From a virus: 23,999 nucleotides of DNA. Made by a program: the position numbers and the translations under genes. This document shows, one piece after another, positions 1,891 through 19,655 of the stretch. Location: the IMG/VR virus record IMGVR_UViG_3300010885_011324, positions 1 to 23,999 of that record, one strand, 5' to 3'. How positions within the stretch are numbered: position 1 is the first letter of the stretch; the number at the start of each line of letters is the position of its first letter. The notes beneath the pieces were generated by a model. The model was given only the letters and a program-made list of their open reading frames with translations. It made no database searches and had not been told where the DNA came from.

Positions 1891-3660
1891 ATGCTACAAC
1901 CAAATCTCATTCAAATGCAGCAGAAACTTAGTCTGCTGCCGCCGACTCCCGAGTCGTTGCAATACCTGACTGCAGCTTCGCAGGGGATGAATACTGCTGT
2001 ACCGCCGTATCTTGCGCTTATGCGTATGAATGAGATTAAGCGGGACATGGAGATGGGTGGCCCACAAGCAGCGCCGCCGACTGAACCAATGAACGAGAGT
2101 TTGCCTAAGCAACTTTCTCAACAAATGGGGTTAGCTGCGCTACAAAAGGGGCGTGCAGGTCAAGCTCAAGAGCAGATGATGAAGCAGGGTATGGCTGCTC
2201 CCCAACCCGTACCTCCCGGTGTACCACAACCAGAATCCCAAGAACCTGAGATGGCTGCGGGTGGTGGACTGATGGGACTGCCCGTTGACTCACGCATGTT
2301 TGACTACGGCGGCGGTGGAATAGTGTCGTTTAAAGGAGGCTCCGAGGACGCTGTAGAAGAAAAGGGTGTTGGCTTGAAAGACCTACGCGCCGCATTAATG
2401 AAGCGACTGGGTATTACAGAGTATGAACCTCCAGAAAAAGACCCTGCAAGAGCTCAAGTAGCGGCACAAGCAGCCGCCGCCGCTTCACCAGAAGTCCCAG
2501 TTATTGCTACACCAGCTACAGCATTGGCAGCGTCAACAGCAGTTTCCCCGGCAGCACCCCCAGTAGCACCCCCAGTAGCACCCGCACCTGCACTTAAACC
2601 CATGTCGGGGGCTACGGATGCCGCTAGCCTTGCATTGTATAACCAAATGTTGGAGCAGTACGGCAAGTTAGCTGCAGTCGAACCCCCGAAGCAACGGAGC
2701 CTAGAAGCTATTCGACAAGAACGCATGTTGGGAGAGGATTATGGTATAGCCGCAGGGCCACAAGGTGCAGAATACCTTACTGGGCTGGAGAAAGCCCGTG
2801 TTGCTAGGGAAGCAGAGTCCACTAAGCAACGTGGGGAGGAGAAGTCTAGGACGCTCCGTGATTTGTCACAGGCTTTGATCGCTGGTGGGCAAGCTACCCG
2901 TGGGCAAAAGGGCATCGGTAGTCTGTTTGGTGGTATCGGAACTTCGCTAAATAAATCTGCTGAAGCTGCTGCTATGCGAGAACAAGGCTTGCGTGAACAG
3001 ACGCTGAAGCAAAACGAACTGATGAATGAAGCACAATACAAAGTGCAGGAACTTCGTCGCGCCCAACTCTCTGGAGATGTGGCTGCTGTTCAGAAAGCTG
3101 ACGCCGAATTTGCTAAGATCGCCGAGAACCTTAATGTATCCAAAGCCACACTTCTCGGGCACTTTGCTACGGGTATTACGGGGTTGATGGGTCGGGAAGC
3201 GGCGGCAGCGGCAGCGGAGTACAACGCAGATAGAAGGTTCGACGATGCACGTGCGCGAGCAGTCGAAGCCGCAAATAAACAAACATCTCCGGATAAACAA
3301 ATAGCAGGTATTGCGGCGAAATTAAAAGAAGATAATCCGGGATGGTCTGAAGCTACAATAACGAGTGAAGCGATTAAACAATATTTGCGCATGAAAGCCG
3401 CAGGGATGCCGGGAGTTGAAGCTAAAATTGAGTCAACAAAGGATACCGAAGCAAAAAAACGCGCTACAGCTAGACTAACTACGGATGCTGCGTATCTACA
3501 AGCGGTAAGAAAAGGGGATGCAGCGGCGCAGGCAGCTAGGAGAGCGGTAATTTTCGCCGAAGAGGGCGTACCAGTAACACCTATAAACATTGCTGCCCCT
3601 GCCCCAGATGCTGGTAACGCACCTCCTCCCCCTCCCGGATATAACCGCGTACCCCAATAA
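1891..3660 (+). CDS. Large helical phage virion-type protein with Pro/Ala linker
   Basis: 589 residues. The ATG at 1891 lies 27 bases after the previous stop, with only a weak AACAGG upstream. The first 130 residues are Met/Gln-rich. They are followed by a Gly-rich motif of the form GGGLMGLPVDSRMFDYGGGGIVSF (about residues 124-148), which I recognise as recurrent in uncharacterised phage proteins of this gene neighbourhood. Residues about 190-250 are an Ala/Pro linker (PPVAPPVAP), encoded in part by a 12-bp tandem repeat. Residues about 290-460 are a long charged helix or coiled coil rich in Ala, Glu, Lys and Arg, with a short Gly-rich insertion (GSLFGGIGTSL). The C-terminus is disordered and proline-rich (APPPPPGYN). 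The stop and the next ATG overlap as TAATG, so the giant gene downstream is probably translated by coupling. Function unknown; an internal or ejected virion protein is the most likely reading. Confidence 0.75.
   Translation: MLQPNLIQMQQKLSLLPPTPESLQYLTAASQGMNTAVPPYLALMRMNEIKRDMEMGGPQAAPPTEPMNESLPKQLSQQMGLAALQKGRAGQAQEQMMKQGMAAPQPVPPGVPQPESQEPEMAAGGGLMGLPVDSRMFDYGGGGIVSFKGGSEDAVEEKGVGLKDLRAALMKRLGITEYEPPEKDPARAQVAAQAAAAASPEVPVIATPATALAASTAVSPAAPPVAPPVAPAPALKPMSGATDAASLALYNQMLEQYGKLAAVEPPKQRSLEAIRQERMLGEDYGIAAGPQGAEYLTGLEKARVAREAESTKQRGEEKSRTLRDLSQALIAGGQATRGQKGIGSLFGGIGTSLNKSAEAAAMREQGLREQTLKQNELMNEAQYKVQELRRAQLSGDVAAVQKADAEFAKIAENLNVSKATLLGHFATGITGLMGREAAAAAAEYNADRRFDDARARAVEAANKQTSPDKQIAGIAAKLKEDNPGWSEATITSEAIKQYLRMKAAGMPGVEAKIESTKDTEAKKRATARLTTDAAYLQAVRKGDAAAQAARRAVIFAEEGVPVTPINIAAPAPDAGNAPPPPPGYNRVPQ
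2553..2583 (+). repeat. 12-bp tandem repeat in Pro/Ala linker
   Basis: Two perfect copies of AGCACCCCCAGT (2553-2564 and 2565-2576) followed by a seven-base partial copy. In frame, the unit adds four residues per copy to the linker of the 589-residue protein. Confidence 0.85.
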
Positions 3661-6600
3661 TGGCTCTTCAAATAGCTACCAACCCTGACACTGGGGCAAG
3701 TGTTGCTTTAGTCGGCAATGAGTGGAAACCTATTGCGCAAACAGCAGTTAACCCTGCGGGGACTAAAGCCTATTTAATAGGCAATCAATGGTTGGTGGAT
3801 GAAGCAATCACTGCCCCCGTTGCGGCTCCCGTTGCGGCTCCCGTTGCGGCTCCCGTTGCGGCTCCCGTTGCTCCAGTAGTTAAACCTCCCCGTGCTCCAT
3901 TAGTAGCGGAGGGCGCTCCAACCGATGAGTTCTCAGCAATGATGGCGGGAGCAGCGGAGCCACCTACTCCTACGGGCGGCTCGATATTTGAGCGTGGTAT
4001 AAAGATGGAACCGCCACAGGAAGATGCGGAGCTAAACCGTCTGACTATGTTGCAAAGCACAAGTCCGGGATCGGTCATGTTTACCGCTGGGCGAGGAAAA
4101 GAAAAGGCAGATGCTGCAATAGCGCAAGGCACTGCAATGCTTGCTAGGGATCAGGCAGTCCAAGAACAACTAGCAGTTATTGCCAAACGAGTAGATGCTG
4201 CTAAGCGCGAACGCCTACAACAAGCCGCCGCCCAAGAAGGTCTTACTGCTCTTGCTAAAGACATTCCGCTTAAACTTGCTCAGGGTATTGTAGGTCTTGG
4301 TGAAGCCTATGTAGGTATAGAAGATATTATTACTGGGGGCGTTGCTGGCAAAGTATTAAAGGGCATGGGGTACGACCCGAAGAGTACTAATGAATTTATA
4401 CAGGGGTTTCAGTCAGCAACTTCAAGGACTCAAGAGCAAGCAGTTGCGGATGCTCAAGGTTTTCTTAATACCACCGCTGCATTACTTATTAATCCCGTTG
4501 CACTGCTAGGTAGTGTAGTTGAGTCCTTGCCGGGGACAGTCCTTGCCGGGGGCGCAGGGGGCAAACTTGTACGGTTTATTGCTGATAAAGCAATACTAGA
4601 GGCAAAAACTCTGGGGCTTACTGGGGCTAGAGCAGAAAAGTTTATAGCAGATAAAGTTAAAGAAAAAATACCGCAGATAGCTTTAGCGGGGGGTGCTGCC
4701 GAAGGTACTCAAACTATGGGGTCAACAGCAGAAGCTGGTAGGCAGGCGGGTAAAGATTGGAATCAGTATGTATTACCTGCTATTGCTGCTGGTTTAGGGA
4801 CTACTGCAATCGGCGCAGTTTCGGGTAGGGTTGCAGCAAAGTTAGGTATTGGAGACGTAGAAACTAATATTGCTGCTAGATCACAGGGAATTAAGGGCAT
4901 TGGGGTTGGTGAAGGCCCGTTTGTAACTAAATTTTTTAAAGAAATAGCTAAGGAAGGTTTCCTAGAAGAACTGCCACAGTCCGCGCAGGAACAGGTATTT
5001 CAGAATCTTGCAACTGGCAGACCTTGGGATGAAGGTGTAGATAAAGCCGCTGCACAGGGGTTGATGGCTGGTATAGCTATGGCAGGGGGGCATTCTGCTG
5101 GGTTAGAGGCGTTAAAAAGAACTTCCACATTTGTTGAAAGTTTTGCTAAACCACTAACCGCAGAACAACTTGCTAGGCAAAAGGGATTTCTTAGACCTGA
5201 AGCAAGGGAAGAACAAGCTCCTCCTCCACCTCCCCCACCGTCTGGCCGTGTAGAGCCGACTGGGTTTACTGGTACGTTGCCTACTGAAGATCGTGCAGAG
5301 CCGACCACTCAATATGTTCCCGGATTTACTAGTGCGCAACCCCCGCTTGATTCTCGTAGGGAGCCAAAACTAACAGGTGATATAGCTACGCCACGAACAG
5401 AGGATCAGGCAATTGCTGATCTGGACGCACTAGCAAGGCAGGAGGAAGAAGATGAACGCCGAAAATCAGAGGAGGGCGCTGGACTTGTCCCCGGAGCAGG
5501 TGTCGCTGGCATTTCAGATACTGTCGGGGCAGTCCCCGAAGGAAGCACATCTACTGAACCAACTGGGGGAGTGGGAGTGGCGGATACTAGCCAGCCTTCT
5601 ACTGACGTTGGAGTTGGAAAAAAACAGCAGCCAGATACATTAACACCGGAAAAAACACAGGAAGAATACAAAGCTGAAGTACAAAAGTTAGCTAATGAAG
5701 CTCAGGCGTTGGGGGGCAATCCCGGCTTTATAGCTGGAATGCTGATTAATGCAGCGCCTATGAGCAAGACGCTAATACAGCAAAGCACTATTGATTTTTA
5801 TAAAGATAGAGTAGATAAACTACGAGCAGCAAAAACAGAGGGTGGAAAACAGCAAGAGCCAATATCTCTCCGTTCATATTTAGCTCCCGTAATTTCCAGT
5901 ATGGGTAAAACCGTTACTGCGTTTTACGATAGTATTATGGGCGAAGCTCAACCCGCAACACCTCTAACGGAGAGGGAAAAAGCCATTCATTTTACTTTAC
6001 AGAATGTTAATGGGCATATAGCCAAGCTCCAAGAAGCATTGCGTAACGCTAATGATCCTACCATTGGCATGGAAAAAGGTACCGCTGAATATGCGGCCAC
6101 ACTAGCTACGGCTCCCTCTCATATTCGGGAAATGCATAGTAGCATTTCATCTATTGCAGGATTAGGGTCTAGGTTTATTAATCAAGCGTTAGCAGAAACA
6201 AAGGGATATAAACGTAGTAATCCCGCTGCAACATTAAAAACTTATGACGAAATTAATAAAGAGATTAGCTTAGAACTTCCGAAAGCCGTAGCACCAAAAG
6301 CCCCAGAAGCTCCAAAAGCACCGAAAGCTCCAAAAGCACCGAAAGCTCCAAAAGCCAAAGCCCCAGAAGCACCGAAAGCTCCAGAAGCCAAAGCGCCAAA
6401 AGCAGTAGAACCCGCTGAGCCAACTGAGGAAGAAATAGATAAGGTAGAAGAAGCACGGCAGACACAAGCTGAAGCGGATGTAGATAGTGGCCCTATTGGT
6501 AAAGCAATAGATCGTATTGAGACGGAAGATCGCGTCGAGACTAAGGCGCAAATAAAGGCACTTGCCAGACAGCTAGAAAAAAATGGGGTGCTGGATGACA

Positions 6601-9600
6601 TCAGCACTGTGCTAGAAGTTATCAGTGATCGGGAACAGGATGCAGGGGATGCACTAAGCGAACTAAGTAGTCTGCTGGACGAAGCAAGAGACAATGCTAT
6701 CTCTGAGCGGCTTGACGAATTAGAAAGCGAAGCTGAAGAAGAAAAAGAAGCCGCTAAGCTACCACTTGCTGAGTCCCTTACACCGAAACCGCCGAAGGAC
6801 GCAACGCCCTATTACGGCTCTTCTGAGATAGATGCCGTTGGTAAAAAGATTACAAAAGCTGCTGAGAATATTCTTTCGGGTTTTATGGTCGGCGATAGCG
6901 TGCGTTTTGGCAATATTCCCGGCATAGTTGTCGGGGTAGAAGGGGACTACGTTAAGTTTCACGCCGACAGCAGCACAAACCCAAAGGCGTATACCAGAGT
7001 ACCTAGCAAGAATGTAACTCTCATATCGCGGCCCGATACTGCATCTACAGCAGCAGCATCTAAATCCACCGACCAAGATAAGAAATTTGGGAAAGAGAAG
7101 GGCGAGTTAGTCGCAGACATGCCGGGGCTTATTCAGTTGCTCGGCGCTAACATGTATGCCTCTGACCTTGCAAGCGTGTCAATTAAAGAACTACTACAGA
7201 ATGCATTCGATGCCGTTAAGGGTGCAACATCAAATTTAAAAGATGCCCCGCTGTATAAATCGGGCAATATACATATCACTATTAACCGTGTTACTCGGAC
7301 TATTACGATTACAGATGATGGCCGGGGTATGACCCCCGAGATTGTACGAAAAGCATTTTTTACTGTAGCTGGTTCGGATAAGTCCGACCTCCCCCCAAGT
7401 TTGCGCAGTGGCGGTTTGGGCTTAGCAAAGATGGGGTTTATGTTGGGTTCGGAACGATTGGTTCTGGATACTGTACGAGATGGAGTACGAACAACGGTAA
7501 ATGCTACGGCTACAGAGATTGCTAACAGCAACTGGGAAACTAATAAAACTCCAGCGCCAAAAAATGAACACGGTACGTCAGTTACTGTTACCATACCAAA
7601 CTCATATATCGACCCTAAGACCGGGGATAGCAGAGATATTTATTTTCCGTATTCTATTGGCAGCATCAGACCTTTACAGCAGCCATTAATCGGCCCTGTT
7701 GCTGTGACCGTGGCGTATACTGGTCGCAGTACAGAAACTGAAGTGCTACCTATGGGGCTTAATTTCCCCGCAGATAGATACCAAAAATTAAAAATTAATT
7801 TTGATTGGGGTAGTGCAGATATATATTACGGAATAGAGCGTAAGGAGAATCCAGAACATAAAGTGCTATCTAGCGGCGTGTATCAGTTTTCTACACAATT
7901 TAATGTAACGCAGTCTGAAGTAATACCTTATGATATTATTGTAAATGTACTCCCTGATGTAGAAGCAAAGCACCCTGATTATCCATTTGAAAATAGTCGT
8001 GAACGATTTAAAGGCCGACTGGAAAATGATGTAACAGCGTTGTCGGCTTATCTTGCGCAGATTGCTCAAGGGTATGCACGGGAAGAACTAAAAGAAAACT
8101 TTAAGAGTATTGTCACCCTTCCTCGGATAGAAGCGGGGCAAGAGATAGCAGACCTTAGCAACAAGCTAAAGATAGCATTTGATAAAACGGGCGGGAAAAG
8201 GGAAACAACAACAAAACTGCCACCGTTGCCTACAGAGGTCAAGATTACAGGACAGGTTGTCACGGATACAAAAGGTAAAGTTGTAGTTGACATGCGAGAA
8301 GAAGAGATCAGAAAACGGGAGAAGCAGAAAGAAAGTACCTTCACCGCTGAGACAGAAGCTGCAAAAAAGGAACAGTTCATGCTGCAGATGCAGCAAGACC
8401 CTGCGCTTCCTATCTATCACAACAATACTAATGTAGATTATCTTGCCATAGGTCGCCCGTATGGGGAACCCGAAAAGTTTTTCGCAGAGTTAGGCACGGT
8501 ATTTGTAGAGATGCGCGAGGCTCTAGCAAAAAGCGGCATGTATGGGTATGATGTTTTAAAGCCAGAAAATTCATTCTTTGCGGGTATCTCCATAGATAGG
8601 GGGCACGGCGGTATCCATATAAAAGTACCGTACAAAGCGATGATGCTTAACCCTTTCTACGATTGGGGCGCAACATCATTGTTTGGTGTACGCGAAAATT
8701 TCTGGGAGACTACGACCCATGAGCTAGCGCATACGGGAGATATGAGTCACGGTGTTGGGCATAACACTCAAATGGCAAAGGTACGGCAGTATCTTGCGGA
8801 GGAGGGATTGCTAGACTACTTCCGTGATGCCATGCTAGATATCTTAGTTCGGCACGAATCAACATTCACTGCAATGAGGGAAGCATATGGGAAGTCAACA
8901 ACAAAAAATACTGGCAAGTCTCTTGAAGACTACGGAAAAGGTTCCGCCAGCGCATCGGATGGAAGCATTGGAGATGGGGGCCAAGACGCATTGGGTTCTA
9001 TACAAACAGGAGAACGACTTGGAGGGAATGAACCTATACGCCCCAGTCCTCCAATTGATACAACAAGCGAAGTCGGTGAAGGAACTGGAAAAAGCGATAT
9101 AACCCCTAAGGCGCAGGCTGGCACACCCATTGTAGGTCTGCACCCATCAGTTTCAAAGGCAATTAGCGCCAATAACATTACGGGGGCGCTCCGTGCGTTG
9201 GCGCAGAACACATCAGGCTTAGCATCTGAGCTTGCTGCACGCCTAGCAGAACTTAATCTGCCTACAATCATCGGATTTAACAATGCCCGTGAGTTGATAC
9301 GCAGGCACATAGACAATAAAACTACCCAGCAGCAGATTCGGCTTTTCTCCTATGTGAACCTCATGTATCCTGAGGTATACAACAAATACTTTAAGACGTA
9401 CAACCAAGGCGATAGTCTTGAAAAGGTATACGAGGGTCTGCAAGAACTGGAGAAGGGTAACTACAATCTTGCCCCGGTCAATACTGAATTTGGTTCGGTG
9501 TACGGCATATACACTAAAGCACTGACGGGACTTACTGCGCCGGGGTTCTTTGTTCCTGATTTGGATAGCATAGCAATTACCCCAAATAAGACGTTGGGCA

Positions 9601-12600
9601 CATCTAATCGCGTATTCTTACATGAAGTAGTCCATGCTGCTACTGAGTTCATGCTCCGTGGAGCCGCTGGCTTAACTGCTAGGCAGCAAGAAGCTGTTGC
9701 TAATTTGTACAAGATGTACGAATACGCCCAATCAAAACTTCCTCCGGGCGAATACGGCTTTACTAATATCTACGAATTTGTTGCTGAAGCTTTAACCAAT
9801 ACAAACTTCCAGAATAGACTTAAGGGTATTCAGTATAAGGTAGAAAAGGCTTCACTATTTAATTCATTTATTAAATACGTAATGCAGATGTTTGGCAATG
9901 ATAATCTTGCCGCTGCAATTATGGTAGAAGCTAACGAGATTTTTTCTGCTGCAAGGCCACAAGCACCCCCAGTAACCGGCAGTATTCGGTTTGCTACTCA
10001 ACCTACAGGACAACCTACAGGACAACCTACAGGAAAAAAGAAACGTATTTGGGGGCCAGTTAGCACACCTGACTCATACCGTACCGCAGAAACTAGCCAA
10101 GTTACGCTGCGTACTTTAATGGGTGATATATTTAAGGGGCGAGTTTCATTAGATGCTGCCGTATCAGATTTAGGGGCTGGACTCTGGAGCTACCCACAAT
10201 GGCGACAACGCGCAGCAATACTGCCAGTACTGCAACTACGGCAACTGCAAGATTTGACCAAATATAAGTTCCCCCAGCTTGGGGGATCAGTAAAAACTGT
10301 TGAGCAGATGACAGCCTACCGTGGCTCTAAAATGAAAGCTGCGGAAGACATACTGAAGATTTGGGAACTGGCGCAGGTTAAAAATCCAAAACAGTCTACC
10401 CTTATGGGGCGGCTTATGATGGAGGTAACAATTCGTAGTATCGAAGTAGACCCACTCGGCCCTAACTACGATGCTAGTAAAGTCAATGCCCCATTAAATA
10501 ATGCATGGAATTCTTTAAGCCCAGAGTTTCAAAGTATTTACCAGCGGGTACGAGATTTTTATTCTGACTCTGTAAAAGATATGGTGCGGGAAATGAAATC
10601 CCGTGCTTTGGCACTGCCTAAAAAAGAACGTCAGACAATGATTAGGAAGATCAACGAGCAGTTTGGCCCCGATAAATTAGCTACCCCGTATTTTCCATTG
10701 CGCCGATTTGGGGAATTTTGGTTCCAAGTAGGTAAGGGAAATTTCAAAGAGTTCTATATATTCGAAGACGTAGATACCCGTGACCGCACTTTCAATAGGA
10801 GAAAGCGGGAGCTAGAAGCAGGTAATGCGCAGCAAAAAGCCTTGGCACAAACTGCTCATCCGGGTAATGGCATCTCAGAGATTTACTCTAGGAACGTAGG
10901 TACAACGCAGGTACTTAAAGACGTACAGGATATGATTGACGGGCTATCGCTGACAGCAACACCGTCAGCGGGTTCTGCTATTAGTATCAGCGACATACAA
11001 AAGGAACTGAAAGATAGCATAAACCAACTCATCTATGTACTGCTACCACAGCAAAGTATGCGTAAGATGTTTATTAATCGTAGGGCTATTCAAGGTGCAA
11101 GTGAAGACATGCTGCGGGTATTTGCGCACACCGCAGTCCATAGCGCGTACCAACAGGCTAGGTTTAAGTTTGCAGAGCCGTTCATAAATAACCTTAATAA
11201 TGCCCGTACTTACATCAATACATTTACAGACACGAAGCGTCAGGCGGTATACCTTGACTATGTACATGAAGTAGAGAAGCGGTACAAAACAATTTTCGGC
11301 ATGGAGGATAAGAGTAGTGGCGCAAAGATAGCCGCAAATATAACGTCACTCACGTTCTTTACCATGCTATCTGGCCCCGCTAGCGCACTGGTAAATGTCA
11401 TTGGTGCGACTATTACTACGATGCCATATATTGGAAGTCGTTATGGATACGCAAAAACTAATGCGTTGTTCTTAAAAAACCTTGCTAAATACGGAAAGTC
11501 TATACCAAGTCGCAGCATAGCACCACTATTTACAGCAGGGCAGGGGTTGAGGAATGTGTTTCAGGTTTCAATGCCGTCTATAGCACAAGGCAAGGGACTT
11601 ATTCCAATACTGCAACGAGCGGCTGATAAGTTTGTAGATGATGGGGATTTTAATATCTCTATGTCGAACGATATTTTTGGTCTGGGTGAACGCCCATCGG
11701 CGCTGTATACAGGCGCGGTAAACAGCGCAAAGAAAGTTGCAGCCTTTGCTTTCCATCACTCTGAAAGTTTTACCCGCGAAAATACACTGCTGACTGTGTT
11801 TGAGCTAGCACATGAAAAATATAGTAATGCAGATAAAATAGATATCCGAGGCGTAGTTGAGCGGGATAAGCAGGGCACGCCAGTTAAATACACCGCTGAT
11901 GAAGCCTTTGACTTAGCTATAGATGAGGCGCGAGAGGTAGTGGGGCTTACCCTTGGTGACCCTAGTCGGCAGATGAAGGGGCGCATATTTACTGTACCCG
12001 GAGTGAATGTACTACTGCAGTTTAAACAATACGCAATAACTACACTTTATTTGCAAGCGCGTAATCTGCAGTTGATGATAGGTACGCCATTCAGTAAGGC
12101 TGAGATGGCAGAGTTCCGTGCGGTTATGGTAGCAGACAAAATGCTCCCTGCCGATATTGAGCAACGCATGAATGAGATTCAAGTATACCGAAGCGAAGTA
12201 GCCAAGGAAGCAAGAAATCAGTTTGCAGGTACGACGGGGATGGCAATGCTATGGGGAGGTTTAGCCGCAGCGCCGTTCTTCTCCCTGATGGGGTTACTTA
12301 TAAGTGCAGCATTCTCCGGGAGCGGGGACGATAAGGATAAGTATTTTGAATGGGAAAATTTCTTCTACAACTTCATGCAGACTGAATTCGGTGGGTGGGC
12401 AGGAGCTATGCTTGTTAAGGCTGGAATGGACGCTAAAAAGGCAGGTGCAGCAGGTGAAAAGATAGGTATGGCTGCAGCCCGTGGCCCTATACCTACTATT
12501 ACCGGAGCCAGCCTTGCAGAGCGTGTCAGTATCGACCCAAAGAATATGCTGTATAGAGAAGGCCGGTACTCTCCCGACGCTCGCCAAAGTGCAGTGGAAA

Positions 12601-13160
12601 CAGCTATTGCTAATGCAGGGCCATTTGCGGGGTTGGCGCTAAATTATGCAGATGCGTGGGGCTTAGCGCAGCAGGGTCAACTAGGCCGTGCATTTGAAAA
12701 AGTAGCGCCCGTGGCAATTGCTAGTCCTATAAAGGCATACCGTCTTGGTACTGAAGGAGCAACAACGCTTGGCGGGGATACTATTGGGGGTTTGTATGCT
12801 GAACAATTTACAATGTGGGAACTTGCATTGCAAAGCATAGGGATACAGCCTGAGAAACTAGCACTAGCGCAAAAGTCTGTAGTGCAAGCTAAAAAAGTAG
12901 CCAAGGAGATTACGGATGAGAGGTCTGCTCTGATGAATAGATTATGGTTGGATCGAGGTACTGATGCGTATTCTGATGCGCTAAAAGCAAAAGCGGATTT
13001 TAATATGCGGTATCCTGAAGAAGCTGTATCGGATGAGAACTTAGCCGACTCATTTAAAGAGCGGGAAAAACTTAAGGCACGGGCTAACGCTGTCGGCGCT
13101 CGTATACCTGAGAAATTAGTGCCTAGAATATCTCCGATGCTACGGTACGGCATGGAATAA
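3660..13160 (+). CDS. Giant PLxRFG-type polyvalent phage protein with GHKL ATPase and two zinc metallopeptidase domains
   Basis: 3166 residues, starting at an ATG that overlaps the previous stop (TAATG). There is no good Shine-Dalgarno site, so translation is probably coupled. Seen in order: an N-terminus with PVAA repeats (about 53-71); a region with hydrophobic Gly/Ala-rich segments (about 275-300, 370-398, 463-488) that could cross or disturb membranes; a long disordered linker (about 510-870); a Lys-Ala-Pro repeat (874-922); an SH3-like stretch (about 1070-1126). A GHKL/HSP90-type ATPase domain follows with all motifs: E1177...N1181 in KELLQNAFDAV, D1219-x-GxG in DDGRGM, GGLGLAKMG at 1251 and GTS at 1305. 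Next is a metallopeptidase domain with HELAHTGDMSHGVGHN (H1687, E1688, H1691, third ligand H1697 or H1701), then a second one with HEVVHAAT (H1988, E1989, H1992) and downstream EFVAEA (E2039, E2043). After a QPTG linker comes a C-terminal region of about 1000 residues with PYFPLRRFG (2341-2351) and hydrophobic segments at about 2558-2591 and 2860-2888. The PLxRFG signature marks a known class of giant phage proteins. I infer a virion protein delivered into the host that acts by remodelling and cleaving host or phage proteins. Confidence 0.85.
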   Translation: MALQIATNPDTGASVALVGNEWKPIAQTAVNPAGTKAYLIGNQWLVDEAITAPVAAPVAAPVAAPVAAPVAPVVKPPRAPLVAEGAPTDEFSAMMAGAAEPPTPTGGSIFERGIKMEPPQEDAELNRLTMLQSTSPGSVMFTAGRGKEKADAAIAQGTAMLARDQAVQEQLAVIAKRVDAAKRERLQQAAAQEGLTALAKDIPLKLAQGIVGLGEAYVGIEDIITGGVAGKVLKGMGYDPKSTNEFIQGFQSATSRTQEQAVADAQGFLNTTAALLINPVALLGSVVESLPGTVLAGGAGGKLVRFIADKAILEAKTLGLTGARAEKFIADKVKEKIPQIALAGGAAEGTQTMGSTAEAGRQAGKDWNQYVLPAIAAGLGTTAIGAVSGRVAAKLGIGDVETNIAARSQGIKGIGVGEGPFVTKFFKEIAKEGFLEELPQSAQEQVFQNLATGRPWDEGVDKAAAQGLMAGIAMAGGHSAGLEALKRTSTFVESFAKPLTAEQLARQKGFLRPEAREEQAPPPPPPPSGRVEPTGFTGTLPTEDRAEPTTQYVPGFTSAQPPLDSRREPKLTGDIATPRTEDQAIADLDALARQEEEDERRKSEEGAGLVPGAGVAGISDTVGAVPEGSTSTEPTGGVGVADTSQPSTDVGVGKKQQPDTLTPEKTQEEYKAEVQKLANEAQALGGNPGFIAGMLINAAPMSKTLIQQSTIDFYKDRVDKLRAAKTEGGKQQEPISLRSYLAPVISSMGKTVTAFYDSIMGEAQPATPLTEREKAIHFTLQNVNGHIAKLQEALRNANDPTIGMEKGTAEYAATLATAPSHIREMHSSISSIAGLGSRFINQALAETKGYKRSNPAATLKTYDEINKEISLELPKAVAPKAPEAPKAPKAPKAPKAPKAKAPEAPKAPEAKAPKAVEPAEPTEEEIDKVEEARQTQAEADVDSGPIGKAIDRIETEDRVETKAQIKALARQLEKNGVLDDISTVLEVISDREQDAGDALSELSSLLDEARDNAISERLDELESEAEEEKEAAKLPLAESLTPKPPKDATPYYGSSEIDAVGKKITKAAENILSGFMVGDSVRFGNIPGIVVGVEGDYVKFHADSSTNPKAYTRVPSKNVTLISRPDTASTAAASKSTDQDKKFGKEKGELVADMPGLIQLLGANMYASDLASVSIKELLQNAFDAVKGATSNLKDAPLYKSGNIHITINRVTRTITITDDGRGMTPEIVRKAFFTVAGSDKSDLPPSLRSGGLGLAKMGFMLGSERLVLDTVRDGVRTTVNATATEIANSNWETNKTPAPKNEHGTSVTVTIPNSYIDPKTGDSRDIYFPYSIGSIRPLQQPLIGPVAVTVAYTGRSTETEVLPMGLNFPADRYQKLKINFDWGSADIYYGIERKENPEHKVLSSGVYQFSTQFNVTQSEVIPYDIIVNVLPDVEAKHPDYPFENSRERFKGRLENDVTALSAYLAQIAQGYAREELKENFKSIVTLPRIEAGQEIADLSNKLKIAFDKTGGKRETTTKLPPLPTEVKITGQVVTDTKGKVVVDMREEEIRKREKQKESTFTAETEAAKKEQFMLQMQQDPALPIYHNNTNVDYLAIGRPYGEPEKFFAELGTVFVEMREALAKSGMYGYDVLKPENSFFAGISIDRGHGGIHIKVPYKAMMLNPFYDWGATSLFGVRENFWETTTHELAHTGDMSHGVGHNTQMAKVRQYLAEEGLLDYFRDAMLDILVRHESTFTAMREAYGKSTTKNTGKSLEDYGKGSASASDGSIGDGGQDALGSIQTGERLGGNEPIRPSPPIDTTSEVGEGTGKSDITPKAQAGTPIVGLHPSVSKAISANNITGALRALAQNTSGLASELAARLAELNLPTIIGFNNARELIRRHIDNKTTQQQIRLFSYVNLMYPEVYNKYFKTYNQGDSLEKVYEGLQELEKGNYNLAPVNTEFGSVYGIYTKALTGLTAPGFFVPDLDSIAITPNKTLGTSNRVFLHEVVHAATEFMLRGAAGLTARQQEAVANLYKMYEYAQSKLPPGEYGFTNIYEFVAEALTNTNFQNRLKGIQYKVEKASLFNSFIKYVMQMFGNDNLAAAIMVEANEIFSAARPQAPPVTGSIRFATQPTGQPTGQPTGKKKRIWGPVSTPDSYRTAETSQVTLRTLMGDIFKGRVSLDAAVSDLGAGLWSYPQWRQRAAILPVLQLRQLQDLTKYKFPQLGGSVKTVEQMTAYRGSKMKAAEDILKIWELAQVKNPKQSTLMGRLMMEVTIRSIEVDPLGPNYDASKVNAPLNNAWNSLSPEFQSIYQRVRDFYSDSVKDMVREMKSRALALPKKERQTMIRKINEQFGPDKLATPYFPLRRFGEFWFQVGKGNFKEFYIFEDVDTRDRTFNRRKRELEAGNAQQKALAQTAHPGNGISEIYSRNVGTTQVLKDVQDMIDGLSLTATPSAGSAISISDIQKELKDSINQLIYVLLPQQSMRKMFINRRAIQGASEDMLRVFAHTAVHSAYQQARFKFAEPFINNLNNARTYINTFTDTKRQAVYLDYVHEVEKRYKTIFGMEDKSSGAKIAANITSLTFFTMLSGPASALVNVIGATITTMPYIGSRYGYAKTNALFLKNLAKYGKSIPSRSIAPLFTAGQGLRNVFQVSMPSIAQGKGLIPILQRAADKFVDDGDFNISMSNDIFGLGERPSALYTGAVNSAKKVAAFAFHHSESFTRENTLLTVFELAHEKYSNADKIDIRGVVERDKQGTPVKYTADEAFDLAIDEAREVVGLTLGDPSRQMKGRIFTVPGVNVLLQFKQYAITTLYLQARNLQLMIGTPFSKAEMAEFRAVMVADKMLPADIEQRMNEIQVYRSEVAKEARNQFAGTTGMAMLWGGLAAAPFFSLMGLLISAAFSGSGDDKDKYFEWENFFYNFMQTEFGGWAGAMLVKAGMDAKKAGAAGEKIGMAAARGPIPTITGASLAERVSIDPKNMLYREGRYSPDARQSAVETAIANAGPFAGLALNYADAWGLAQQGQLGRAFEKVAPVAIASPIKAYRLGTEGATTLGGDTIGGLYAEQFTMWELALQSIGIQPEKLALAQKSVVQAKKVAKEITDERSALMNRLWLDRGTDAYSDALKAKADFNMRYPEEAVSDENLADSFKEREKLKARANAVGARIPEKLVPRISPMLRYGME
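3816..3872 (+). repeat. 12-bp tandem repeat encoding PVAA
   Basis: Four perfect copies of CCCGTTGCGGCT (3816-3863) and a nine-base partial copy. They sit in frame at the start of the giant gene, where each copy adds Pro-Val-Ala-Ala. Perfect identity at the DNA level points to recent slippage. Confidence 0.93.
5440..5445 (+). promoter_or_regulatory. Consensus Shine-Dalgarno site inside the giant gene
   Basis: A full AGGAGG lies six bases before the ATG at 5452, in the +1 frame relative to the giant gene. It is the best match to the anti-Shine-Dalgarno sequence I noticed in the left half of the window. It may be chance, since AGG AGG AAG also encodes part of an acidic/basic linker. Confidence 0.6.
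5452..5643 (+). CDS. Candidate overprinted small gene inside the giant ORF
   Basis: 63 codons in the +1 frame, embedded in the stretch of the giant gene that encodes a low-complexity linker (giant residues about 598-661, rich in Gly, Glu, Ser, Thr, Pro). It is preceded by a full AGGAGG with six-base spacing. In contrast to the linker, the product looks like a folded helical protein: a polar start, LSPEQVSLAFQILSG (residues about 12-26), a Trp pair in GEWEWRILASLLLTLELEK, and a polar end SSQIH. The pattern of LSPEQ, a short loop, EW and a final Leu-rich helix ending near His resembles small phage proteins of unknown function, but I cannot verify homology. If real, it would be made from the same mRNA as the giant protein. 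The alternative is a chance ORF in an unconstrained linker. Confidence 0.5.
   Translation: MNAENQRRALDLSPEQVSLAFQILSGQSPKEAHLLNQLGEWEWRILASLLLTLELEKNSSQIH
6279..6416 (+). repeat. Lys-Ala-Pro repeat region
   Basis: Degenerate tandem repeats of triplets encoding PKA / PEA (giant residues about 874-920), including two perfect 18-bp copies of CCAAAAGCACCGAAAGCT at 6312-6347. The product is an extended, charged linker like those joining domains in multi-domain proteins. Strand-specific codon bias here also creates long antisense ORFs rich in Ala, Phe and Gly, which are artefacts. Confidence 0.85.
8887..9102 (+). CDS. Second candidate overprinted small gene inside the giant ORF
   Basis: 71 codons in the +1 frame, opposite the low-complexity linker between the two metallopeptidase domains (giant residues about 1743-1815, mostly Gly, Ser, Asp, Thr). 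GAGGGA at 8876-8881 lies five bases before the ATG. The product has balanced composition, with QQKILASLLKT, a run THWVLYKQENDLEG and a C-terminal amphipathic helix (LQLIQQAKSVKELEKAI). I do not recognise a family. Like the ORF at 5452 it sits exactly in a linker, uses the same +1 frame and has a plausible ribosome-binding site. Chance cannot be ruled out without homologues. Confidence 0.4.
   Translation: MGSQQQKILASLLKTTEKVPPAHRMEALEMGAKTHWVLYKQENDLEGMNLYAPVLQLIQQAKSVKELEKAI
9999..10034 (+). repeat. 12-bp tandem repeat encoding QPTG
   Basis: Three perfect copies of CAACCTACAGGA, in frame, placed just between the second metallopeptidase domain and the C-terminal PLxRFG region of the giant protein (residues 2114-2125). 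It is followed by a short basic stretch (KKKR). Confidence 0.93.
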
Positions 13161-13358
13161 TTATCCGATCCGCCAGATTCGAAGCCCTTTAATCCCGTCT
13201 TCAATGACGGGTTTTATTGCTACCTTAAAATCTAATCGTTTCATGGTAGCGTTTACAGACACCTTACCCTCCTCAACGCGCAAGCAGGGTAAGAAAACCG
13301 ACCAGCCTAACTTAAATTTACGCCAGTCGATGTTGTAGTCGATATCATTTAATCTCAT
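13161..13358 (-). CDS. Small conserved-looking phage protein
   Basis: 65 residues. The start ATG at 13358 overlaps the last 14 bases of the primase gene and is preceded closely by AGAGGA, so it is the distal gene of the primase operon. The middle part holds WRKFKLGWSVFLPCL, the C-terminal part a segment TMKRLDFKV and then KPVIEDGIKGLRIWRIG. This combination resembles a small phage protein family of unknown function, and its aromatic/basic character would suit a nucleic-acid or protein contact. The stop codon abuts the stop of the giant gene on the other strand with no spacer. No catalytic motif is visible. Confidence 0.7.
   Translation of the reverse strand: MRLNDIDYNIDWRKFKLGWSVFLPCLRVEEGKVSVNATMKRLDFKVAIKPVIEDGIKGLRIWRIG
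13194..13215 (+). terminator. Rho-independent terminator candidate for the virion operon
   Basis: CCCGTC-TTCAAT-GACGGG followed directly by TTTT: a perfect six-pair GC-rich stem, six-base loop and short T-tract, 33 bases after the giant gene's stop. It lies inside the coding sequence of the opposing small gene, where the same bases encode PVIEDG. On the minus strand the stem is followed by ATTAAA, so it would act in the plus direction only. The T-tract is short and the stem modest, so efficiency is uncertain. Confidence 0.6.
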
Positions 13359-16179
13359 CTTCCTCTTCTGCGGCGTCCTTCTCTACAGCCTCTTTTGCGG
13401 CTGCTATGTACATGTCTGGGTCTATGAAGTCACCCTTGGAGCAGTCAAATACGTAAGCATCTACGGGCGGAACACTGCCGAGTTTTGTGCCTTTAGCCAT
13501 GCGTTTCTTTATTGTGCCAATGTATACGCCGTCAGCGGTCAGAGAATTAAGTACGTCCTTGATAGTTATCTGATGGTCAGCGCACCATGTACGCAGCTTC
13601 TTCCCGATAATGAAGAGCTTTTGGGTATCTGGCTCCATGCGAATTATCATTTCGCCACTAGGTTCTAGGATTGGCAGCATCTCTACGCCCGTGCGTTTAT
13701 CCACCCGATCATTTATCACCAGCGTATTGCGCCGATGCTCATTCCAATACTCTCCTATTACGCTGCTATGGTTAGATGATGGTGGCTTTATGTCCTGCCG
13801 CATTTGGGCAAATTCTGTAAGCATCCACTTAAACACGCGCCCTACATCTATGTCGATCAGCCCGAGGCGTCTAGCAAAGAGCGCCCCAGCAATATTGCAC
13901 GCCGCCACACCTGACCAGAATCGTTCACGGTTCGTAAATCCCACCTTCTTGTCTATGAGCCTCTGAATTTCCTTGACTTCTCGTATACGCTCCTCCAAGT
14001 TGCTCACCAGATCGCGGATGTATATGCGCCCTGCATGACCATAGTTGGTGTGCAGCTTAGGGTAAATATCGTCTGCTTCCTGCTTTGTCAGGAGCTTAGT
14101 CTCGGGGATTGCGTACTCAATTACCCGCATTAGCTCGCCATCTGGCATGGAGGTCAACGATCTTAGTTTGTCTACCACCGATGCATTAGAACTGCATAGC
14201 AGAATAGTCTGCCACTTAGCCATGTTGATGCGCTCAGCATTTTCATTCGACTTCATGCGCCCTCGGCCTCGCCCCTGCGAAACAGCATAGGCGAAATTAC
14301 TGAAATCATCCGCTACCATCTTTGTTATTTCATCGCACCCCAGCCCCAGATTGTTCATAACGCCGAGCCGATGTAGCCGCACATTCATAGTGTCCCGCTG
14401 GATCAGCATTATTTCCTCGGGGTGACCATACACGCTATGCATCGCCTTGATTGTTGTGGTTTTGCCCGTCCCCGACTCATTGTTAATCATGTTTATGATG
14501 GCCCCCTTCAGGTTCAGGTGCTTCATCAACGGTGCGCCGAATGCAGTAAAGAACCCGAATGCATGGGGTTCAAACCCCGGTTTGTCGTACACATTAATAA
14601 CTGACTGCCATTCTTCTAGCGTACCTACGGGGGTAAACCACTCTGACAACTGTGAGGTGTAGCTTGAAGGGGGGCTGTACCTGTCGCCCTCGGCGCTTAT
14701 CTCAGTGTCGCCGATTACGAATGCCTTGTTTTTTTCTGTCCAGCCGTATTGTGATCGCATGATTTCTGCCCCTTGTTTGTATTGCAGTTCTTTAACTGAG
14801 CGGACTATGTACGCCATGATCGCGTCCATCTGCTTTTTTAGTGCGATAACTCCATACCACGCTAGCTTTTCTCGTAACTTATCCGGTGTGAGTAAGTCCA
14901 CTGCGGGTAACGCAAATTCCCGCACTCCGTCTTTCGGAGTATGCAGACGCATCCATATGACTTCTCCGCTCTGTGGGTCTTTGAGTCGCTTAACCACATA
15001 CAGGTCATGCTCGTATATAAGGATTGCGTCGGCATCATCCTCTTCTTCTGCCTTACGGTAGACCCCACCGCCCTTACCACGAAAGTATGGAAACGGGTAT
15101 TCTGGTATGGTGTACGTAACTGGCTTGGACGATTCCGAAATGAATTCAACTTGATTGTCTTCTGGTGTTGCTTCAGCAATCTCTCCCCCTAGCACAATTG
15201 GGGATGTGATCTTGCCTTTGTGAATGCAGTTATCACAGCCACCGGGATTGACCGACTCAAACTTCTCGCACGTGTACGGCCCCCGAATCTTCTGAACCTT
15301 GTCTTCTGTCCCCGCTGCCGAGTACCCCGGATGCTTGTTAGATATGTCATGCACTGCCGTACTTGCATCTACACAGAACGCTGGGATAGATAACGCTGCC
15401 CTCCAACGTGGCTCATCCAAAGTTTCCTGTTCTGCTATAGCCTTTGACAACTGAAAGCAGCCAGTACCTTTGGCGTTCTTATCGACAATGACGCTGAATC
15501 GAAACTGCTTGTTCCCCATAAGAGCACGGGTAAGCTCGTTTATCTGCGTCGGTATGTACTCTGGCGCTTCTTCGATCACACCCAGCTTACTTTTAAACGC
15601 TTCGAAATCAACCGCTGGCGCAATACTTATGACCGATACATCTAGTGCAGGGTCGGTCTTGTGGTTCAATGTCTCTGGCATACGCAGGATAGACGCTGCA
15701 TCAGATGTGCGGCTAGGGTCTGCTTCCATATTGTGCTCATGGCACAGGGCTTTGAACCGCTCCGCTACGGGCGTCCATTGCTGTCGCGTAACGTCAGCGG
15801 TTAGCGTCCAATATACGTGCAGCCCCCGCCCGGAATTCACTAGCGTCGGCCTTGGGAGACCAACAGCTTTGCAGAAAATCTTAAGCGCAGTCAGTCCATC
15901 TGCTTGCGTAGCGTAGGGCTTACCCTCTCCACAATCTATGTCTAACCAGAATGCCTTAATTGCTTTTACATTGTCTTTTGCTCTAGTCTTATTCGTTTCG
16001 TATTTAGCACAGGCAAAGTACACATCGTACTGTTTGCTCAATAAATCCTGTACCTCTAGCTCTACCTCTTCTAGCCCCTGAACAAATATTTGTTTAGGTA
16101 GCCCAGTCTTCTTGAGACCGACAATACAGTACCATCCCTCTGTGGACAGCACTGCCGACAATAGATTTGTCCTTGTCAT
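13345..16179 (-). CDS. AEP-type primase-helicase fusion protein
   Basis: 944 residues from the ATG at 16179, which has AAAGG upstream. The frame stays open to a GTG at 16212, but that codon lies in a stem-loop and adds only 11 residues. The N-terminal part (residues about 1-190) looks like an archaeo-eukaryotic primase of the RepB/phage type: metal-binding LDID with D80 and D82, SGRGLHVYW at 116-124, and DPSR...ILRMPETLN at 154-172. A Cys cluster at about 300-320 (C...CDNC.H) may bind zinc. The second half is a P-loop ATPase resembling the DUF927-like or SF3-like helicase part of phage and plasmid primases: Walker A GTGKTT (570-575), an acidic Walker B-like GLGCDEI, and a conserved QGRGRGR. 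It would synthesise primers and unwind the phage replication fork. The gene lies directly downstream of the HTH gene, across a stem-loop. Confidence 0.85.
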   Translation of the reverse strand: MTRTNLLSAVLSTEGWYCIVGLKKTGLPKQIFVQGLEEVELEVQDLLSKQYDVYFACAKYETNKTRAKDNVKAIKAFWLDIDCGEGKPYATQADGLTALKIFCKAVGLPRPTLVNSGRGLHVYWTLTADVTRQQWTPVAERFKALCHEHNMEADPSRTSDAASILRMPETLNHKTDPALDVSVISIAPAVDFEAFKSKLGVIEEAPEYIPTQINELTRALMGNKQFRFSVIVDKNAKGTGCFQLSKAIAEQETLDEPRWRAALSIPAFCVDASTAVHDISNKHPGYSAAGTEDKVQKIRGPYTCEKFESVNPGGCDNCIHKGKITSPIVLGGEIAEATPEDNQVEFISESSKPVTYTIPEYPFPYFRGKGGGVYRKAEEEDDADAILIYEHDLYVVKRLKDPQSGEVIWMRLHTPKDGVREFALPAVDLLTPDKLREKLAWYGVIALKKQMDAIMAYIVRSVKELQYKQGAEIMRSQYGWTEKNKAFVIGDTEISAEGDRYSPPSSYTSQLSEWFTPVGTLEEWQSVINVYDKPGFEPHAFGFFTAFGAPLMKHLNLKGAIINMINNESGTGKTTTIKAMHSVYGHPEEIMLIQRDTMNVRLHRLGVMNNLGLGCDEITKMVADDFSNFAYAVSQGRGRGRMKSNENAERINMAKWQTILLCSSNASVVDKLRSLTSMPDGELMRVIEYAIPETKLLTKQEADDIYPKLHTNYGHAGRIYIRDLVSNLEERIREVKEIQRLIDKKVGFTNRERFWSGVAACNIAGALFARRLGLIDIDVGRVFKWMLTEFAQMRQDIKPPSSNHSSVIGEYWNEHRRNTLVINDRVDKRTGVEMLPILEPSGEMIIRMEPDTQKLFIIGKKLRTWCADHQITIKDVLNSLTADGVYIGTIKKRMAKGTKLGSVPPVDAYVFDCSKGDFIDPDMYIAAAKEAVEKDAAEEEDEIK

Positions 16180-16202
16180 AGCCGCCTTTGCACCGCAAAA
16201 GA

Positions 16203-16244
16203 AAGCATCCACGGGGGCGGCGATACCCCTACTTGTGGATGCTT
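16203..16244 (-). promoter_or_regulatory. Stem-loop between HTH gene and primase gene
   Basis: AAGCATCCAC at one end pairs perfectly with GTGGATGCTT at the other (10 bp). The 22-base loop can form a further GGGG/CCCC pairing. In the minus-strand transcript the stem is followed by TCTTTT and, 23 bases later, by the primase ATG. It lies seven bases after the HTH stop. This could be a leaky terminator or attenuator that lowers primase expression, an RNA-processing site, or a protein-binding dyad; the sequence does not decide between them. Confidence 0.7.
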
Positions 16245-16250
16245 ATGGGT

Positions 16251-16499
16251 CTATGCGCTAACTTTAGTACCTGCAAGCGCCTCTTCGATCTTTGCGCAAT
16301 GCACTCGGCGTGGAATCCACTCACCGATGAACCATTTGTATATGGTCATACGGCTCACACCATAGTACTCTGCCACTTCACGAACAGGAATCTCACGCTC
16401 AATACAGAAGCGCCCCAGTGCAACACCGGGACTTCTGGCAGAAGCCTTCAAATTAGCCCGAGTGATTCTTGATGAATAGCCACGGCTGTCCATTATCAT
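16251..16499 (-). CDS. Small HTH DNA-binding protein
   Basis: 82 residues from the ATG at 16499, which overlaps the stop of the upstream gene by four bases (ATGA); the second ATG, at 16493, is an equally good start. A clear helix-turn-helix spans about residues 38-60 (PVREVAEYYGVSRMTIYKWF), preceded by a basic N-terminus and LGRFCIEREI. Small proteins of this style occur in many phage replication operons, where they are presumed transcription regulators. Its gene is in the operon driven by the promoter at 17808-17836, whose -10 box is covered by a dyad, so self-regulation of this operon is a reasonable but untested inference. A role in origin recognition next to the primase is an alternative. 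Confidence 0.75.
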   Translation of the reverse strand: MIMDSRGYSSRITRANLKASARSPGVALGRFCIEREIPVREVAEYYGVSRMTIYKWFIGEWIPRRVHCAKIEEALAGTKVSA

Positions 16500-17362
16500 T
16501 CATCATCGGTAGACCAACTGTTCAGCACATCGACAAAATCTTTTTTGGATGCTGGCTCAGTAATCTTTTTAGAGGGGCGCTTAGTAGGTTCAGCTACTTC
16601 TTCCGTCTCTACTTTAGGTGCAGCCGCCGTTATTGCTTTAGGCTTTTGCTTTGCATCAGTTGCAAATGCGGTCTGGAGCACAGCCGCCTTAGCCGCAGGG
16701 CTATCGCCTTTCTCACGGGCAGTTTCCCATTCCTGCTCTGATAGATATCTAATCGGCTTGAACGTCAGCTTTGGCGTATCGCTGTCGCTGTCTAGGCGAA
16801 TTTCAGTTACCAACGTGTTGATGCTCTTACCTTGAGTGCCAACATATTTGGCGTACTGTTGGAACGGCATCTTGTCTAGATCACCCCGGCCAAAAATAGA
16901 CTTTGCGGGGAGCAGTAGCTGAAATATATCCCCATCAATATCATCGGCAAGAAGCACTGCAAGTCGCTGCTGATACCGGCAAGCCCTAGAGTCACCTTGA
17001 CCAGAGCCTTTGATGTTCTGGCTACAACCTTCGCACGATTTATTTTGCGGGTACTCAATGCTGACATCAGGTTTGTCGCCGTCGTTAGACCAGCAATCAG
17101 GGGATGCCGCTTCTCCTGCTACGTACTTACCAGCGTAGAAGGAACGTGCTACATGTCGCCCACCGTTAACAATGACAAGGTTCATTGCACGGCTTTCGTT
17201 CTTAGCAATTTCTTCACCACTCACCATCAAACGAAACACACCGCCTCGGATGGAAATACGCTTAACGCCTGTGTTGCCAGACAGAGATTTTGTGAGGTCG
17301 TCAAGACCTACTTTTTTAAGATACGCAGGGACTTCTTGCTGAAACAAAGTTACATCATTCAT
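16496..17362 (-). CDS. Candidate phage single-stranded DNA-binding protein with zinc site
   Basis: 288 residues. The ATG at 17362 has an excellent Shine-Dalgarno site (AGGAG, five bases of spacing). The N-terminal two thirds form a beta-rich domain beginning about residue 34 (KRISIRGGVFRLMVSG). Four cysteines (C90, C110, C113, C128) in SPDCWS, CEGCSQN and ACRYQQR look like a zinc-binding insertion. The last 60 residues are Ala/Pro/Glu/Lys-rich, disordered, and end in an acidic aromatic tail (NSWSTDDE). A core domain plus a disordered linker plus an acidic tail is the layout of replication SSBs such as T7 gp2.5, and T4 gp32 also carries a zinc site. The position next to primase, HTH and helicase genes fits. 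I have no direct homology to name, so the function is an inference. Confidence 0.6.
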   Translation of the reverse strand: MNDVTLFQQEVPAYLKKVGLDDLTKSLSGNTGVKRISIRGGVFRLMVSGEEIAKNESRAMNLVIVNGGRHVARSFYAGKYVAGEAASPDCWSNDGDKPDVSIEYPQNKSCEGCSQNIKGSGQGDSRACRYQQRLAVLLADDIDGDIFQLLLPAKSIFGRGDLDKMPFQQYAKYVGTQGKSINTLVTEIRLDSDSDTPKLTFKPIRYLSEQEWETAREKGDSPAAKAAVLQTAFATDAKQKPKAITAAAPKVETEEVAEPTKRPSKKITEPASKKDFVDVLNSWSTDDE

Positions 17363-17383
17363 GTTTTCTCCTAGGGTTAAAAA

Positions 17384-17773
17384 TTACTTGCGCCGAATAG
17401 TGATTTCATATTCACTGTCGATGTTCAATCCGGGTGGGTGGTCTTCGGGATGTTCCGCCATAAACTCCTTCATGTTCGTCTGGTGAATACGCTTTTCCAA
17501 CAACTCCATTGTGGAATGCTCCCGCATAAAATCATAGAAGCTGCCCCAGTCGTTAGTCCAGTAGCGTGTCTTGATAGTGCGGTATGCAGTGCCGTGGGGT
17601 GTGGCAAAGCTGGTTGCTCCAGTTTCTTTGGAGATTTCAATTAGCTTGTGTTTGAGCGTAATCATTTGCGCTTCAAGCTCTTCTTCTTTAGCCTTGTACT
17701 CTTGGTACAACTTCTCTTTCACATCGCGTATCTTGATGTACGCTTGCACAATTTTCTCAATGGGTGCGTCCAT
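17384..17773 (-). CDS. Coiled-coil phage protein, first gene of the primase operon
   Basis: 129 residues, ATG at 17773 with AAAGGA seven bases upstream. Residues about 5-50 are a charged helix or coiled coil (IRDVKEKLYQEYKAKEEELE), followed by a beta-like SFATPHGTAYRTIKTRYWT and a segment FMREHSTMELLEKRIHQTNMKEFM. It ends in PPGLN and a basic tail (ITIRRK). This arrangement occurs in uncharacterised phage replication-module proteins; I cannot assign a function. It is the promoter-proximal gene behind the strong promoter at 17808-17836, 21 bases upstream of the SSB candidate. Confidence 0.75.
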   Translation of the reverse strand: MDAPIEKIVQAYIKIRDVKEKLYQEYKAKEEELEAQMITLKHKLIEISKETGATSFATPHGTAYRTIKTRYWTNDWGSFYDFMREHSTMELLEKRIHQTNMKEFMAEHPEDHPPGLNIDSEYEITIRRK

Positions 17774-17798
17774 GTTGTCCTTTCAATTTTGTTGCTGG

Positions 17799-17821
17799 AA
17801 GGGGTCTATTGTACACCCCTT
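17799..17821. promoter_or_regulatory. Dyad over the -10 box, operator candidate
   Basis: AAGGGGT (17799-17805) and ACCCCTT (17815-17821) are perfect inverted repeats separated by nine bases. They straddle the -10 hexamer of the promoter below (17808-17813). A dimeric repressor bound here would block RNA polymerase. The same bases could form a hairpin only if transcription started further upstream. The 82-residue HTH protein encoded in this operon is the obvious candidate ligand. Confidence 0.6.
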
Positions 17822-17836
17822 TCTTTACTCTGTCAA
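17808..17836 (-). promoter_or_regulatory. Consensus sigma-70 promoter for the SSB/HTH/primase operon
   Basis: On the minus strand: TTGACA (17836-17831), a 17-base spacer, TACAAT (17813-17808). The -35 is perfect and the -10 has one mismatch. Transcription would start near 17801, about 28 bases before the ATG at 17773. The -35 box overlaps the stop codon of the SNF2 gene (TTGACA contains the TGA at 17835-17833), so the promoter is embedded in the end of the upstream gene. Confidence 0.88.
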
Positions 17837-19653: not shown

Positions 19654-19655
19654 AT

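Follow-up and report, generated by a model that had tools for sequence, protein, structure and literature searches.

Polyvalent proteins that carry metallopeptidases are already known (PMC5512222), and giants of the DarB/PLxRFG type have been linked to the virion. For one such giant, gp69 of phage JC1, purified virions yielded 51 unique peptides (PMC9144972), and an N-terminal signal directs the packaging of P1 DarB (PMC9024508). Here, we analyzed a window that spans the whole of a 23,999-base IMG/VR record and encodes a giant polyvalent-type protein with a putative Hsp90-type ATPase fused to a predicted zinc protease. Judged from sequence, this fusion would be a new variant element among such proteins. 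In Hsp90, a loop of the middle domain provides a catalytic arginine that contacts ATP, while proteases of the SprT/Wss1 family cut DNA-bound proteins. Among ATP-driven proteases, those of the FtsH type carry an AAA+ ATPase and a zincin on a single polypeptide; to our knowledge, the ATP-driven proteases described so far rely on AAA+ rings.

A giant phage protein with an ATP site and two HExxH motifs

The giant gene (3660..13160, plus strand, as are all features of its product given below) is an open reading frame of 3166 residues with PLxRFG, LPD39 and Hsp90-family matches. Its ATG start overlaps by 1 base with the stop codon of the preceding gene (1891..3660, plus strand), which was delimited from the ORF list and by sequence comparison. 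In relative contigs, the region just 5' of the giant gene is partly similar to this upstream gene, and the corresponding gene there resembles a DNA ejection protein. A replication block encoding a primase/helicase, a helicase, an exonuclease and a DNA polymerase occupies positions 13345-22700 on the minus strand and runs toward the giant gene; within it, a 129-aa ORF (17384-17773) has a match to a PHROG annotated as minor head protein. PADLOC found no defence-system match, and the Rfam and tRNA scans of the window returned nothing.

A preliminary description of this DNA had reported an intact GHKL ATP site in the 3166-residue protein, and every motif it named lies where it was placed: E1177, N1181, D1219 (DDGRGM), G1251-G1254 (GGLGLAKMG) and G1305-T1306-S1307. 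The HELAH (residues 1687-1691) and HEVVH (1988-1992) motifs and the PLxRFG tail then follow in the order that had been given. The PLxRFG/DarB-like C-terminal part (residues 2343-3166, 10686..13157) matches NCBIfam NF032893 at 2.7e-77 (260.8 bits against a cut-off of 100) and phrog_10089, a DarB-like family, at 8.4e-44, the latter likeness being confined to this part of the giant. This score bears out the earlier assignment to the PLxRFG giants; a PLxRFG/DarB giant is present in JC1 virions (PMC9144972). An LPD39 domain (residues 2184-2336, 10209..10667; Pfam PF18858, 8.9e-13) precedes the tail. The protein thus shows the hallmark of polyvalent proteins, namely several unrelated domains and an LPD in one phage protein: LPD39, the Hsp90-type ATPase and two HExxH domains.

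The ATPase is predicted to be Hsp90-type

The ATPase half begins with an N-domain holding a Bergerat ATP site (residues ~1146-1320, 7095..7619), recognised through Pfam and NCBIfam models, profile comparison with HtpG, and Foldseek. Pfam HATPase_c_3 matches residues 1174-1301 (E 1.7e-7), and the NCBIfam HSP90 family matches residues 1151-1311 remotely (E 6e-11). In many relatives, the first glycine of the DxGxG motif is an alanine (DNARGM). When the module profile was compared with candidate relatives by hhalign, E. coli HtpG gave a probability of 97% (E 1.1e-10), GyrB 32% (E 4.9e-4) and T4 rIIA 9% (E 3.6e-3). HtpG was also the first match of the module profile among solved structures (E 8.9e-11). 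GyrB and T4 rIIA were each ruled out as the nearest relative of the ATPase, their profile comparisons being far weaker than that of HtpG.

The AlphaFold model (mean pLDDT 76, pTM 0.57) has an ATPase fold of the Hsp90/GyrB/MutL type. Foldseek matched it to HtpG, Hsp90 and TRAP1 at 1e-11 to 1e-13 (Hsp90/HtpG at 1e-12 to 1e-13), with GyrB and MutL next; in the viral structure library, the closest protein was A0A516L4L2 (4.4e-45 over 695 columns). A small five-stranded beta domain (residues ~1079-1125, 6894..7034), seen as strands in the AlphaFold model and through its conservation, precedes the ATPase and is not kept in the distant relatives L032 and L036.

The N-domain is followed by a middle domain (residues ~1321-1480, 7620..8099), delimited by conservation and by the shape of a motif found in HtpG. 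Its loop YPFENSRERFK, containing R1447 (codon 7998-8000), has the same motif shape as HtpG DLPLNVSREILQ at 335 (LPLNVSREILQ); as the hhalign alignment to HtpG spans the N-domain only, this likeness rests on motif and position. R1447 is invariant in 39/39 distinct relatives, and the loop also occurs in the 24-31% identical relatives (L032/L036). Sequence and model comparisons thus confirm the predicted ATPase as Hsp90-type, with an N-domain and a middle domain carrying a catalytic-arginine loop, and they place HtpG as by far its best cellular relative. The HtpG profile match, the arginine loop and the Foldseek results agree in this with the HSP90-type ATP site proposed before. Neither the profile searches nor the AlphaFold model revealed a recognisable Hsp90 C-terminal dimerisation domain, and a zincin follows the middle domain instead. 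Consequently, a clamp would need the N-domains or the remainder of the giant.

A SprT/Wss1-like zincin follows the ATPase, and a second HExxH domain is optional

The first zincin (residues ~1578-1760, 8391..8939, with HELAH at 8718-8732) was characterized as SprT/WLM(Wss1)-like from Pfam matches in relatives, Foldseek and conservation. N1664-P1665, H1697 and H1701 are invariant in the alignment of relatives, and an Asn-Pro ahead of the HExxH helix is also present in E. coli SprT (IRLNPVLL...HELAH). In the AlphaFold models, this region runs helix, three strands, HExxH helix, helix, which is the zincin core order and the core described for the metallopeptidases of polyvalent proteins (PMC5512222). 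Pfam SprT-like matches 14/28 of the relatives' segments, and WLM and MPTase-PolyVal match as well, with the segments in part including the second HExxH domain too. No Pfam model matches either HExxH domain of the window protein itself.

For the two-zincin model, Foldseek returned nothing below E 0.001; Wss1 was the sole sensible match near the top and the best credible one, at a weak E of 0.6 and a TM of 0.50-0.55 normalised by target length. When just the first zincin was compared with PDB profiles, nothing but insignificant reprolysin matches came up. We therefore use the name SprT/Wss1-like without claiming family membership, because the SprT-like profile stays under its curated cut-off in the relatives (best E 2.9e-4); both sequences and models point to a remote similarity. 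The third histidine, at +6 (H1697), is invariant in 39/39 modules and present in L032. Its absence from the most distant relatives, L036/L037, leaves the assignment of the third zinc ligand unsure.

The second zincin-like domain (residues 1828-2100, 9141..9959, with HEVVH at 9621-9635 and an EFVAE motif) was defined by alignment. HExxHA and EFVAE are kept in 8/8 aligned sequences, and the domain is missing in about half of the recovered giants. By these comparisons, the second putative zincin is accessory or optional, and the first is the one bound to the ATPase. The description of an ATPase beside two metallopeptidases consequently holds for the first, which is strictly linked to the ATPase, but not for the second, which comes and goes and is not equivalent to it.

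ATPase and protease form one module that moves between giant backbones

A query of viral contigs with the single protein yielded just two near-identical contigs, and alignment queries were needed to recover relatives. In a peptide scan from the ATPase side, complete modules turned up at 30 loci (L004-L033), each of them carrying HExxH, and a protease-only scan identified 49 loci, giving 39 distinct complete modules in which a GHKL domain is followed by HExxH. E1177, N1181, D1219, G1223, GGxG, K1257 and G1305-T1306, as well as H1687, E1688, H1691, H1697 and H1701, are kept in 39/39 of these. With this invariance the ATP-site and HExxH motifs cannot be put down to chance. As scans from either half recover both halves, the linkage is strict in both directions, and the two are also paired in the distant L032 (31% identity) and L036/L037 (24%). 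The comparisons thus show a fused architecture with strict linkage of its halves and retention of both predicted active sites. The checks by structure prediction and sequence search that the preliminary description had proposed came out in its favor: other phage proteins with this domain order exist, their catalytic residues are retained, and the predicted structures have the Hsp90/GyrB/MutL-type fold in the ATPase region and the zincin core order around the first HExxH.

L036 (8054-13324) and L037 represent a second distant GHKL-HExxH lineage of ~1700-1750 aa proteins without the histidine at +6, and their GHKL part weakly resembles rIIA families. Scans for further relatives of the L032 and L036 types returned known contigs only. 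Using tblastn, the module had no match in 72,556 plasmid records and one weak, uninformative match (26.6%, E 0.5) in 50,697 phage records; it was not found in the DarB-like INPHARED records. Across 385 bacterial genomes of one class, the sole match was a MAG fragment, L039 (SHVV01000079.1, 10055-10465). This fragment begins mid-domain, covers part of the protease half and lacks the Hsp90 half; it lies at the end of its contig, preceded by ABC-transporter genes. The contig is probably chimeric or misbinned, and therefore provides no evidence for a cellular copy; within the class scanned, a cellular origin was rejected.

The boundaries of the module were evident from giants with unrelated flanks. 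In blastp comparisons, similarity to the window protein starts at about residue 1040-1070 and stops at about 1775-1830, and with the alignment this defines a conserved exchangeable module of residues ~1053-1790 (6816..9029). The C-terminal parts of the giants fall into two groups without detectable similarity, PLxRFG/LPD39 (24 sequences) and LPD38 (16), and N-domain identity across the groups reaches up to 85%. N-domain and tail distances correlate weakly (Mantel r 0.17). These comparisons show that the predicted Hsp90-zincin module moves between two unrelated giant backbones.

An alternative is that both halves are active but work independently, as effectors merely placed side by side, which is common for the domains of polyvalent proteins. 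Polyvalent proteins do join unrelated activities (PMC5512222), and N-domain distances track those of the protease less closely (Mantel r 0.52) than those of the middle domain (r 0.81). However, every complete relative found from one half has the other, including L032 and L036 at 24-31% identity, and the remaining domains of the giants vary, unlike this pair. We consider such independence improbable.

The giant is likely packaged in the virion

The N-terminal domain (residues 188-492, 4221..5135; phrog_30335 and tblastn) is ~34-36% identical to giant or structural proteins of Pseudomonas phages 8P, F116, LKA5 and phiC725A, and several of the large Pseudomonas phage proteins with this region are annotated as structural. 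The region is common to giants of many Pseudomonas phages whose middles otherwise differ. We regard it as a candidate packaging or ejection domain.

Gene order was informative in the relatives. In a 62.9-kb relative contig (L051/G004) with terminase, portal and head-protease genes, the giant ends the block of virion genes and directly follows a DNA-ejection-like gene (phrog_4287, 2.8e-5). In L032, its neighbours are a tail protein gene on one side and a tail-fibre gene on the other, which is also where T7 has its internal virion proteins. The domain content of the relatives' giants is varied. The 4091-aa giant of L032 (6119-18394) has a RadC/JAB domain just ahead of its distant Hsp90-zincin module, that of L013 (3169-7419) has H-NS C-terminal and GNAT-like domains, and that of L030 (4688-16681) has SAP-like and ART-PolyVal domains. 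Because of the synteny with virion genes, the structural-protein N-terminus and the precedents of JC1 gp69 and P1 DarB, we infer from homology and gene order that the giant is likely packaged in the virion and injected.

The location beside ejection and tail genes, together with the Hsp90 fold, could also indicate a structural role, in which the Hsp90-like part would be a chaperone of virion assembly or ejection and proteolysis would serve the maturation of capsid or ejection proteins. Nevertheless, the annotation of related giants is that of DarB-like antirestriction proteins, and in relatives the module is accompanied by effector (ART, GNAT) or DNA-binding domains. Moreover, sequenced relatives with the same tail lack the module, which is therefore not needed for assembly as such. 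A purely structural role seems very improbable to us.

A model for an ATP-gated protease in the newly infected cell

Our model suggests that the giant is a virion-packaged, injected polyvalent protein whose cassette of Hsp90-type clamp and SprT/Wss1-like protease would cleave proteins once inside a freshly infected cell; we give this account an even chance. In the central cassette (~1053-1790), the zinc protease would take the place of the Hsp90 C-terminal domain. The giant would be packaged in the virion and delivered into the cell with the phage DNA. GHKL clamps close on ATP; in the same way, ATP binding would make the Hsp90 part clamp down on DNA or on a client. The closed clamp may then bring the client to the protease, which would cleave proteins within the cell early in infection, the likeliest substrates being host proteins that bind or guard the incoming DNA. 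ATP-gated proteolysis in a cell that has just been infected appears to be the most likely function. The preliminary description had read the pairing in a similar way, as possible ATP-gated cleavage of a host target with a candidate role in anti-defence or host takeover. The ART, GNAT, H-NS C-terminal, SAP and RadC domains of the relatives suggest a site of action within the host cell and close to DNA. The SprT/Wss1 likeness and these effector and DNA-binding companions lead us to favor DNA-bound or DNA-guarding host proteins as the substrate, which is a guess.

In contrast, the protease could act solely on the phage's own protein. In this main rival, it would cut the giant, or else further virion proteins, either while particles assemble or once inside the cell, and so free the giant's domains. 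The ATPase would then be an integral chaperone or unfolding switch, setting the time of the cut or helping the giant to refold once through the portal. Iyer et al. 2017 proposed autoprocessing as a main role of such peptidases, citing cleavage of P1 DdrB (PMC5512222). A glycine/serine-rich linker of low AlphaFold confidence follows the module, and a protein that has passed through a narrow portal would require help to refold. On the other hand, the module is highly conserved while the surrounding linkers and backbones differ, which fits a fixed foreign substrate better than a self-substrate that keeps changing, and the second, different HExxH domain of many giants could do the processing. Taken together with its proposal for the ATPase, we hold self-processing to be unlikely, although worth serious attention.

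Returning to the injected protease, it is possible, if somewhat doubtful, that the Hsp90/GHKL clamp loads or gates the SprT/Wss1-like protease and that phages inject the pair to strip or destroy host proteins, possibly on the incoming DNA. Should ATP drive the protease, the module would represent a new class among ATP-dependent proteases and would couple ATP to proteolysis through a clamp instead of an AAA+ ring. The conserved pairing, the exchange among giants and the likely delivery make the module a well-bounded, expressible unit of ~700 residues for finding the host target. It could also help to uncover a defence system targeted by phages as they enter.

Comparison with known systems

The pairing of ATPase and metallopeptidase had been called uncommon. 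The term understates the case, because the literature searched, which covered few subscription journals, describes no fusion of an Hsp90-type ATPase with a zinc protease. The giant resembles the polyvalent proteins (Iyer et al. 2017) and PLxRFG/DarB-like giants in being a giant multidomain phage protein with zincin-like metallopeptidases, LPD39/LPD38 and a PLxRFG tail. However, the domains listed for polyvalent proteins do not include an Hsp90-type ATPase, and the main text has 0 mentions of HSP90, GHKL or histidine kinase (PMC5512222).

With Hsp90 (HtpG/TRAP1), the giant shares the N-domain ATP site and the arginine loop of the middle domain; in contrast to Hsp90, it has a zinc protease in place of a recognised C-terminal dimerisation domain and is embedded in a phage protein. 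Like SprT/SPRTN and Wss1 (WLM), the first zincin has HExxH with a histidine six residues on, an Asn-Pro strand motif, Pfam SprT-like/WLM matches in relatives and Wss1 as one of its best, though weak, fold matches. The similarity is nonetheless remote, the zincin is fused to an ATPase, and no known DNA-binding tail was identified. T4-like rIIA is likewise a phage protein with a GHKL ATPase domain and gives structural matches of ~1e-10, but its profile match to the module is much weaker than that of HtpG, and we know of no protease domain in rIIA. A survey of jumbo phages mentions GHKL for topoisomerase and rIIA only. Finally, FtsH-type metalloproteases rely on an AAA+ unfoldase ring, whereas the predicted ATPase of the giant is a GHKL/Hsp90 clamp.
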